Translations under genes and position numbers: made by a program | Notes under the pieces: model-generated | Told to the model about the DNA's origin: nothing | The model's database searches: none | Seen by the model: only the letters and a program-made list of their open reading frames with translations | From: Stutzerimonas stutzeri RCH2 | Lineage (GTDB): Bacteria; Pseudomonadota; Gammaproteobacteria; Pseudomonadales; Pseudomonadaceae | NCBI RefSeq assembly: GCF_000327065.1 | Contig: NC_019936.1 | Location: forward strand, 1-64,000 | Length of the DNA stretch: 64,000 nt | Direction: 5' to 3' | In this document: piece by piece, positions 47,308-49,013 of the stretch | Numbering within the stretch: the first letter of the stretch is position 1 | Layout of the letters: every line of letters begins with the position of its first letter

Positions 47308-47583
47308 ATGGCGCGCTTTTTCCCTGTCCGCTCGCAATGCCTGTTCGACACACCCGGCGAGCGGCGCCTTGCCGAGCGGCTGGAAAAGCTGCTGGAAGAT
47401 GATTACTTCTGCTGGAGCAACGTCCCGGTCGGCCCCAAGGCGCGCTATCCCGACTTTGCGGTGCTGCATCCGCCGCGCGGCATCCTCGTTCTGAAGGTCA
47501 AGGAGCTCGCCAGCCTTCAGAGTATGGGTATCTATGGCTCTAAAGCACCGAAAATAAATCTGTCTCCTTTTCCCCAGGATTGA
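47308..47583 (+). pseudogene. 3'-truncated NERD-domain (nuclease-related) gene
   Basis: The first 65 or so residues (MARFFPVRSQCLFDTPGERRL to ILVLKVKE) match the start of NERD-domain nuclease/helicase proteins, which usually continue for several hundred residues. After VKE the sequence turns into about 25 unrelated residues in AT-rich DNA and stops. AAGGAAGG precedes the ATG. The rest of the gene is missing, apparently replaced by the cassette-like region that begins near 47510. Confidence 0.7.
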
Positions 47584-47586
47584 ACA

Positions 47587-47910
47587 ATGGAATCGATATC
47601 TTCAGATCAAAAAACAAAGCAGAAAGGAACCTGCCCGTTTTGCACAAAAAACGTGGCAGCAGTTTTAGTCGAAGACAACAAAGTTCGGCGGGACAAATGC
47701 CAATGTCCTGAGTGCAATGAGTTCATATTTCTGTGTCGTTCCCCGGGCTGCCATGACTATGCAAAAGGAACGCAGGTCTACGATCACGAGCTATGCCCAT
47801 CATGCACGGAAACAGTTTCAGACGGACTTAAAGTAATTGGTAAATCAGCACTAACTCTTGCCACCACTGTAATTGGCGGACTCATACTCGCAGCAGCCAA
47901 AAAAAAGTAA
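47587..47910 (+). CDS. cassette-like gene 1: zinc-ribbon, tail-anchored small protein
   Basis: A 107-residue protein with Cys pairs CPFC, CQCPEC, C..GC and CPSC at about 16-72 that look like zinc-binding knuckles, then a C-terminal hydrophobic segment (about 84-102) and KKK. It may be a membrane-anchored zinc-ribbon protein. AGGA lies 7 bp before the ATG. GC content is clearly lower than in neighbouring genes. An attC-like site begins 2 bp after its stop. No family could be recognised. Confidence 0.65.
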   Translation: MESISSDQKTKQKGTCPFCTKNVAAVLVEDNKVRRDKCQCPECNEFIFLCRSPGCHDYAKGTQVYDHELCPSCTETVSDGLKVIGKSALTLATTVIGGLILAAAKKK

Positions 47911-47912
47911 CG

Positions 47913-47990
47913 ACCTAACAATGCGTTCAAATCGCTCGCTCCGCTCGCTGGGACGTCCGCAATTGGCCGCCCCTTAACCAAACGGTAGGA
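47913..47990 (+). mobile_element. attC-like recombination site 1
   Basis: ACCTAAC at 47913-47919 fits the RYYYAAC core, and an imperfect palindrome extends to about 47990 through GCGTTCAA, CGCTCGCT and CTTAACCAAACG. The far core reads GGTAGGA instead of GTTRRRY. The same layout occurs at 48370. Sites of this look follow gene cassettes in integrons. Confidence 0.6.
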
Positions 47991-47994
47991 AAAA

Positions 47995-48375
47995 ATGATG
48001 GATGAACTGAAAACCATCGAACAAGAGCTAAATAGTTGGAGTGATATTTTAAACATAGCCGTTGGGGCACCATCTTTAGCTTTTGCACTAGCTTGCGCCT
48101 CGCTACCCGAATATATAAATCTTATTGGCTGCGCAATATCAATCGCCATGTGGATTTCCCTAATGGCTTACGCCAGACCATCGTTTTCTAGAAAACTGCA
48201 AGAGCTAAGGCTGAGGCAAGATAAAGACGAAAGAGCAAGAGAAATAATAAAATTCTCTGAAGAAAACTTTCTGAGCAACTACAAATTCAGTCCGTACCTT
48301 CTAGGTAGCCTCAGTTTGGTTCTGGTCGCTGGCTACAGTTATTTGTCTGTATTACTCAAGTTGCTTTTCCCCTAA
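47995..48375 (+). CDS. cassette-like gene 2: small membrane protein
   Basis: A 126-residue protein (125 if the second ATG at 47998 is used, which has better spacing to AGGA). It shows two hydrophobic segments (about 20-38 and 40-58), a charged loop (KLQELRLRQDKDERARE) and a third at about 98-124. It is AT-rich relative to the chromosome. Its stop codon lies inside an attC-like core. No family recognised. A cassette-borne membrane protein is the best description. Confidence 0.6.
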   Translation: MMDELKTIEQELNSWSDILNIAVGAPSLAFALACASLPEYINLIGCAISIAMWISLMAYARPSFSRKLQELRLRQDKDERAREIIKFSEENFLSNYKFSPYLLGSLSLVLVAGYSYLSVLLKLLFP

Positions 48376-48447
48376 CTAGCGGTCCAAGCCACTCGCTTCG
48401 CTGTCTGGGACAGGCTAAACCCGTCCCGTTATCCAAACGCGAGAAAC
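48370..48447 (+). mobile_element. attC-like recombination site 2
   Basis: CCCTAAC at 48370-48376 differs from RYYYAAC at one base. The following GCGGTCCAAGCC, CTCGCTTCGCTG, GGGAC/GTCCC stem and TTATCCAAACG repeat the layout of site 1. The far core (GCGAGAA) is degenerate. Boundaries are approximate. Confidence 0.55.
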
Positions 48448-48450
48448 AGT

Positions 48451-48513
48451 ATGGCCACCAGTGAGCACGCATACGCAGATAACTGGCTAGAACTAACACT
48501 ACTGATTGAATAA
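48451..48513 (+). other. 20-codon open frame after attC-like site 2
   Basis: ATG at 48451 begins a 20-residue frame (MATSEHAYADNWLELTLLIE) that ends TAA at 48513, right at the junction with the DUF1993 fragment. It may be the cut 5' end of a third cassette gene. Coding is not supported beyond that. Confidence 0.35.
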
Positions 48514-49013
48514 AGAAGGCGCAGGCCCAGCTACCGGAAGCTGAGGCGCAGGCGTTGTTATCCGCGCGGCTGGCGCCGGATATGTTTCCGCTGTCGACTC
48601 AGGTGCGCTTTGCCTGCGTGCACGCGCGGGAGGCCGTTTGCCGGCTGAGAGGCGAGGCATTCCCGGCTGCGATCAACGAGCTGCTGGACGAGGGGCGGCA
48701 TGCGGGTGAGCGGCCGGGCACGCTGGCTGATGCCTATGCCCCGATCGATGAGACGGTGGCGTTGCTCGACGGCCTCGCCGCCGATGCGCTGGATATGGAC
48801 GCGGACAAGCCAATCGCCCATGAGCTGGCAAACGGGATGATTTTCGACCTGACCGCGGAGCAGTACGCCCGTGACTGGACACTGGCGCAGTTCTATTTCC
48901 ATGTGATGACCGCGTATTCGATCCTGCGTAGCGAAGGGATCAATCTCGGCAAGGCGGATTACGTGGCGCATATGCTGCCGTATCTGCGGCGGGAATCGAT
49001 TCCGAAGGGGTAG
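48510..49013 (+). pseudogene. 5'-truncated DUF1993 gene
   Basis: The frame from 48510 reads KKAQAQLPEAEAQALLSARLAPDMF, entering the DUF1993 family about 30 residues late, and then continues to a normal end (NLGKADYVAHMLPYLRR). TGA closes the frame at 48507-48509 and there is no ATG or GTG start with a ribosome site. The only start is a TTG at 48555. The lost start coincides with the right edge of the AT-rich cassette region, so the gene was probably cut by that event. Confidence 0.65.

Follow-up and report, generated by a model that had tools for sequence, protein, structure and literature searches.

The NERD/DUF1993 locus of RCH2

In the analysed DNA of Stutzerimonas stutzeri RCH2 (the window, i.e. 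the whole stretch of 64,000 nucleotides), a foreign stretch of approximately 984 bp (47527-48510) separates a broken NERD-helicase gene from a broken DUF1993 gene (Table 1). In sequence comparisons similarity to relatives stopped at 47526 on the left and resumed at 48511 on the right. The GC content of the insert, determined in 400-bp windows, was 0.43-0.47 and that of the DNA outside 0.585-0.705, in agreement with an earlier note on this DNA, which had described the two genes lying here as AT-rich. The flanking remnants were recognized by Pfam models (NERD 3.2e-6; DUF1993 5.6e-37), and among the phage-defence models NERD+UvrD matched the NERD remnant. When the NERD gene of four relatives was translated, the protein was long in three and broken in one. 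At this locus, designated locus C, the truncation points of the NERD gene differ among many genus genomes and the gene is long in others; the interval between NERD and DUF1993 is variable in length and content across the genus genomes.

The two genes of the insert were found at the positions given in the earlier note (47587-47910 and 47995-48375). The note had them ending at, or 2 bp before, a core resembling RYYYAAC, and this was borne out: the stop codon of gene 1 lies 2 bp upstream of ACCTAAC (47913-47919), and that of gene 2 falls within CCCTAAC (48370-48376). Family models yielded no function for either protein, and no phage-defence model matched them. The name zinc-ribbon, proposed for the product of gene 1, is based on CxxC motifs visible by eye; no Pfam model scored above its cut-off. 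Similarly, the designation of the gene 2 product as a membrane protein is backed by hydrophobic stretches seen by eye, and not by a family match.

The AT-rich tail following the second cassette (48446-48510 if counted from the end of attC2) is possibly the head of a third, truncated cassette, perhaps fused to the DUF1993 gene; it had no counterpart among the locus C stretches compared. The dispersed repeat AATAAATCTGTCCCCTTTTT occurs in four copies in the genome (with up to 2 mismatches), one of which lies where the array is broken on its left side. Three further copies are at C1:4086858-4089228, less than 3 kb from a 90-aa open reading frame matching Y1_Tnp (IS200-like transposase). At locus C of one relative (L066) the repeat directly abuts a truncated attC at the broken left end.

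Table 1. Positions of the features at locus C and of the third attC site of RCH2. Positions without contig name refer to the window.
Feature	Position	Strand	Evidence
NERD-helicase gene, 5' remnant (NERD+UvrD type)	47308..47526	+	Pfam and relatives
Copy of the dispersed repeat, AATAAATCTGTCTCCTTTTC, where the array is broken on the left	47553..47572	+	genome search
Cassette 1, first ~17 bp missing (left edge approximate)	47574..47984	+	L165 comparison
Gene 1, 107-aa CxxC protein	47587-47910	+	open reading frame
attC1; R'' ACCTAAC, R' GGTAGGA (expected GTTAGGx)	47913..47990	+	model R1 64.8 bits, E 5.4e-16
Cassette 2, 455 bp	47985..48439	+	attC matches
Gene 2, 126-aa predicted membrane protein	47995-48375	+	open reading frame
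attC2; R'' CCCTAAC, R' GCGAGAA	48370..48445	+	model R1 39.5 bits, E 1.4e-8
AT-rich tail after attC2, ATG at 48451, 20-codon open reading frame	48440..48510	+	letters alone
DUF1993 gene, 5'-truncated	48511..49013	+	Pfam and relatives
Third attC of RCH2, single	C1:2849137-2849212		model R1 87 bits

Identification of the two palindromes as genus-type attC sites

A covariance model (R1) was constructed from 57 attC sites of genus-mates, without any window sequence and with a hand-written hairpin structure. From the 127 unique sites of 20 relatives' loci 70 were drawn at random; 57 were used and 13 dropped, 11 of the 13 because the extraction pattern began inside the site and the other two inadvertently. 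Since the extraction pattern required CGTT at the R' end, conservation of R' in the model is partly imposed. The earlier note had proposed an attC covariance search, for example with the model of IntegronFinder; with R1 in its place, both palindromes were matched and nothing else in the 64-kb window at E<=10. The matches span all 76 positions of the model and follow the layout RYYYAAC...L''...L'...GTTRRRY with fitting R'' cores, and the ordered blocks that the note had seen in both palindromes are thus real and follow the layout of attC. The two sites are 380 bp apart. An Rfam scan of 16 kb gave two chance-level matches only, and for this reason the attC calls do not derive from Rfam.

Searching with the two window sites by blastn yielded 151 places in 18 of the 20 relatives' loci fetched. 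Many of the 56 genus genomes carry closely similar sites in arrays, after differing cassettes; the note had named the lack of an attC-model match and of similar palindromes after unrelated genes as observations that would speak against it, and neither was borne out. In 18 genus genomes of 1-5 contigs R1 found 203 matches at E<=1e-4 (70 + 133), G050 being the sole genome of this set with none. By hand count 37 of these 203 scored below attC1 and 8 below attC2; the E-value limit removes still weaker sites, and the window sites are therefore placed no more precisely than in the weaker part of the distribution. Among plasmids, the attC1 region was matched by blastn in 20 records, six of which were inspected. 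Three had an annotated intI1 in the stretch, the fourth was a class 1 integron end with resistance cassettes, the fifth had a chlorite-dismutase cassette gene beside Tni genes, and the sixth showed no integron feature. The plasmid records carry no attC annotation, the label having been assigned in this analysis. We conclude that each of the two palindromes is a genus-type attC.

Occurrence of the cassette genes elsewhere

Among 398 genomes of the family, gene 1 had a match at E<=1e-8 in four, RCH2 included, and gene 2 in RCH2 only. Homologues of gene 2 do exist, one of them labelled Stutzerimonas kunmingensis by its source. Compared with 47 array loci (46 from relatives and one own), the cassette bodies of the window showed no match longer than 100 bp.

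A homologue of gene 1 with 82% identity was found in another genus (L165). In L165/L159 this homologue occupies the first cassette position after an attI-like site; an attC follows it directly, an intI-like gene lies upstream, and the array of L165 contains several attC sites. The intI-like gene is possibly broken, because the match to it spans two reading frames. Gene 1 is thus a cassette gene elsewhere, and this, together with the attC model, supports the reading of the window genes as integron cassettes put forward in the earlier note. At the other loci with gene 1 homologues (L160, L161, L163, L164) no attC was matched by R1. Relatives of the CxxC protein were also seen in 30 plasmid records (e.g. 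NZ_CP060992.1), 29 of them enterobacterial; the 20 of the 30 records that were listed are 3.6-6.9 kb in size.

Signs of decay in the array

The R' cores of both window sites deviate from G^TT, and we therefore speak of decayed attC sites. The note had called these far cores, GGTAGGA and GCGAGAA, degenerate, and so they are by comparison with relatives: at locus C the far core reads GTT in 40 among the 45 R1 matches listed (hand count). The same GGT change is present in the R' core of one genus-mate site (L099 10086). As single-stranded DNA, attC1 folded no better than chance (z -0.30; 69 of 200 shuffles as good) and attC2 weakly (z -1.53; 16 of 200), and the one genus-mate attC tested for folding gave z -3.58 (2 of 200). 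The word palindrome was in this respect an overstatement.

The homologous cassette of L165 begins with G^TTAGGC, approximately 17 bp upstream of the part shared with the window, and from this earlier start cassette 1 is read as having lost its beginning. An integration point on the left at A^TTGAAC (~47579) was considered and rejected, the L165 cassette showing that ~17 bp are missing there. With mutated R' cores, apparently poor folding, and truncated ends and flanking genes, the array is decayed, as the earlier note had suspected, and it is probably inert now.

No intI gene was detected in the RCH2 genome

The integrase missing from the surroundings of the cassettes, to which the note had drawn attention, was absent from the whole RCH2 genome as searched. 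TIGR02249 gave nine weak matches in this genome (best 80.6 bits, cut-off 265), and at the same loose threshold (E<=0.001) matches were obtained in all 14 control genomes too. At E<=1e-60, intI was detected in 32 of the 56 genus genomes, RCH2 (G000) not among them; the intI genes of G031 and G038 carry stops, and several genomes match only part of intI. The neighbourhood of the intI locus (NYN/OST-HTH gene), located via G048, lies at C1:831-838 kb in RCH2 and contained no IntI match better than E 0.31. In G006 and G029 the corresponding neighbourhood gave no IntI match at E<=1e-10. A tyrosine-recombinase fragment with a stop was noticed at C1:1525120-1525329 (L104) of RCH2; it is approximately 40% identical to genus IntI over 39-46 aa, a weak match with a best E of 7e-7. 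Of the components of a complete integron, the window array has neither intI nor an attI at its head.

Locus C in relatives

The locus C sample consisted of 39 stretches from 37 genomes, fetched around NERD and/or DUF1993, some of which contain one of the genes or do not span the interval. attC sites were present in 14 of the 39 (46 matches at E<=0.1) and absent from 25. In 45 of the 46 matches the orientation was as in the window, the exception being a weak match in L099. An attI core was found in 10 stretches and was missing from 29. Eight of the cores are longer than 60 nt; seven of these end G^TT, and L089 reads G^CT. The query of the first IntI comparison was presumably a class 1 IntI, judging from its appearance, and the comparison at the locus stretches was repeated with genus integrases as queries. 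No intI gene was found in the 39 stretches: the genus queries matched only the translated attI region and, weakly, L072 (~25% identity, best E 0.03). In G031, G036, G045 and G048 the intI locus and an attI core at locus C coexist. Locus C is thus a recurrent cassette locus in the genus, with an attI core in part of the genomes. In the window itself no attI remnant was detected between 47001 and 48600 (111 of 200 shuffles scored as well), and for this reason derivation of the window array from an orphan attI rests on the position and orientation in the relatives.

Orphan attI cores in the genus

The note had also suggested a genome search for related palindromes, and this brought up one further attC in RCH2 (Table 1). 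It closes a 960-bp cassette (C1:2849137-2850163; L125, L183) encoding a 292-aa protein without Pfam family. The cassette is located between HMG-lyase-like and alpha/beta-hydrolase genes (locus B), directly behind an orphan attI core, and starts with G^TTATAT, complementary to its own R'' ATATAAC. In 14 of the 17 locus B stretches fetched (RCH2 included) the cassette is preceded by a conserved sequence ending like CTAATTATAG^TT, and after this end 11 different cassette starts occur in the 14 stretches, with three pairs alike. The conserved sequence is the attI that adjoins intI in genus-mates. Insertion at an attG was considered for the third attC and rejected, the upstream side being the genus attI core. 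Locus B of RCH2 is a candidate for a working platform in a genome without intI.

With 129 bp of the intI-side attI of G048 as query, 37 of the 56 genus genomes yielded 60 matches in total (E<=0.001), a lower bound that omits diverged cores such as those of G029 and G047 (locus B) and of G027 (locus C). No match was obtained at E<=0.01 in the E. coli, plasmid and phage collections. All 20 matches located less than 2 kb from intI cover 92-129 nt, and 19 of them begin at query position 1. Among the 40 situated farther off or on other contigs, 35 comprise the core only (query start 60-74, ~62 bp), two of them (G009, G014) with just 75-76% identity; three extend over nearly the whole query (G002, G012, G039), and in these genomes intI may have decayed or be off the contig; the remaining two are shorter pieces. 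The 35 core-only sites without nearby intI are distributed over 28 of the 56 genomes. Fourteen of these genomes have intI at E<=1e-60 elsewhere and 14 have none at that threshold, counts to be read with the fact that many genus genomes are drafts, in which intI may sit on another contig. In the genomes of 1-5 contigs, 17 of 18 core-only sites (RCH2 included; hand count) are accompanied by an equally oriented attC at a distance of up to 1.8 kb; the one that is not is G033:C1:3273297. The latter and three other sites (G031:C1:4537233, G035:C16:761507, G046:C19:43315) represent a further orphan position, whose flank is 72-74% identical to that of locus B; the likeness of the flanks suggests a duplicated platform.

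Upstream of the core, a weak resemblance between orphan copies and those on the intI side extends to approximately the start codon of intI. The number of shuffles (of 500) scoring as well was 1 and 0 for intI-side/locus B, 2 and 39 for intI-side/locus C, and 3 for B/C. Because of this weak likeness, tempered by the pair with 39 of 500, the orphan attI sites are possibly derived from heads of integrons whose intI was lost. What recurs at the NERD/DUF1993 and HMG-lyase/hydrolase loci is the genus attI core with attC downstream and no intI in the fetched stretches.

Footprint of a putative insertion in trans

In G045 the distance from intI to locus C is 3.7 Mb in contig coordinates, or ~1 Mb on the assumption that the 4.73-Mb contig is circular. 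The block made up of the two cassettes nearest to its orphan attI (L098 3904-4783) shares 98.75% identity with a block inside the intI array (L108 9333-10211), the similarity breaking off on either side at a G^TT junction. Such ends at cassette junctions are expected of attC x attI insertion; the block could also have been moved by homologous recombination. In G033 a 1.4-kb block is common to the intI array and locus B, and both blocks are to be taken as cases among the 47 loci compared and not as a survey.

Origin of the array

We consider it likely that the window contains a decayed CALIN (cluster of attC sites lacking an integron integrase) of two cassettes, which an IntI working in trans built at an orphan attI and which has since lost the attI and its ends. 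The array would have been assembled by attC x attI recombination of the kind that the footprint in G045 suggests. Deletion would then have removed the attI and the ends of the array; the repeat associated with the Y1 transposase lies at the left break. By analogy with cassettes in general, any expression of the cassette genes would depend on outside promoters. The wider proposal, to which we give an even chance, is that of a split integron: one intI-attI locus and recurring orphan attI cores of ~62 bp, present in half of the genomes, are filled in trans by one IntI, or by a visiting or since-lost one, the window being a ruin and locus B of RCH2 a survivor with one cassette. Service in trans needs a lost or visiting integrase in some genomes, because 14 of the 28 genomes with core-only sites lack intI at the threshold used and other intI genes are partial or carry stops.

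Three other explanations were weighed. The array could have entered by attC x attG recombination, i.e. by IntI-mediated insertion at a non-classical genomic site, as reported by Loot et al. 2024 according to citing papers. Such entry would agree with the lack of attI remains in the window, where the entry point cannot be read because both ends of the array are damaged. It is nevertheless unlikely, since repeated chance insertion at attG would bring no attI sequence, whereas eight relatives have an attI core of more than 60 nt at the same locus, seven with the G^TT end, and the attC matches of locus C share one orientation with a single exception. It is also conceivable that the array was split from an ordinary intI-bearing integron by chromosomal rearrangement or transfer and that no separate platform is involved. 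The 14 core-only genomes without detectable intI (E<=1e-60) would fit such a history. We regard it as very unlikely in view of the intI-locus neighbourhood, which is situated elsewhere in RCH2 (C1:831-838 kb) and is devoid of intI, and of the four genomes having both the intI locus and the locus C core.

That the palindromes are transcription terminators or REP-like elements instead of attC sites has next to no probability. They do follow the genes directly and contain GC-rich hairpins, and the fold of attC1 is no better than that of shuffles; but the attC model matched them with E values of 5e-16 and 1e-8 and found no others in the 64 kb, their DNA matches cassette ends in class 1 integrons, and the gene 1 homologue is followed by an attC in an array, which together with the model matches we judged already refuting.

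Relation to known systems

The sedentary chromosomal integron used for comparison is what we take to be the Stutzerimonas (P. stutzeri) type. The attC sites of the window are of its kind and the orphan attI core is the one present in arrays with intI, but the window lacks intI and occupies another chromosomal position than the intI locus. A CALIN, whose definition and two-site default are those of IntegronFinder 2.0 (PMC9024848, as far as its available text goes), is resembled in that two attC sites each follow a small unrelated gene and no integrase was found in the RCH2 genome. Differences from it are the two mutated R' cores, the damaged array ends and the attI core that some relatives retain with an array at two loci, a point on which the definition, in the part of the source available, is silent. 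According to the available part of PMC12444791, about every second Xanthomonas genome has CALINs at places other than the intI locus, with seven such loci in the better-sampled species; these integrase-less arrays at repeated loci are similar to those described here, but no attI is reported in that part of the source, whereas the ~62-bp attI core is found at many loci in the present genus. The third attC of RCH2, closing a single cassette, is like a SALIN (a single attC without integrase, in the portion of PMC9229058 at hand), from which it differs by its position directly behind an orphan attI core. With the attG insertions of Loot et al. (2024), as described in citing papers, the arrays share the location of cassettes outside an integron; the target in relatives is a recognizable attI core and not a non-classical site.

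Further integron literature was covered in part (PMC9892861, PMC3607928, PMC12901181, PMC11023631, PMC11200725). In titles and the beginnings of abstracts, with subscription journals (P. stutzeri integron papers among them) thinly covered, no orphan attI sites were described, and within the same coverage nothing was found on chromosomal integron plus Stutzerimonas. The novelty of orphan attI platforms is thus not proven.

Taken alone, the window is an ordinary decayed array; the interest lies in the genus pattern of intI-free attI platforms. CALINs are common, and the literature, as far as it was accessible, accounts for their origin by degraded integrons or attG insertion. If the proposal is true, a third origin would join these two, a platform without integrase in the form of orphan attI cores at recurring loci, and the repeated occurrence of arrays in the same positions would be accounted for. 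One integrase would then address several chromosomal positions, and attC-based searches that are blind to a local attI would miss such platforms.
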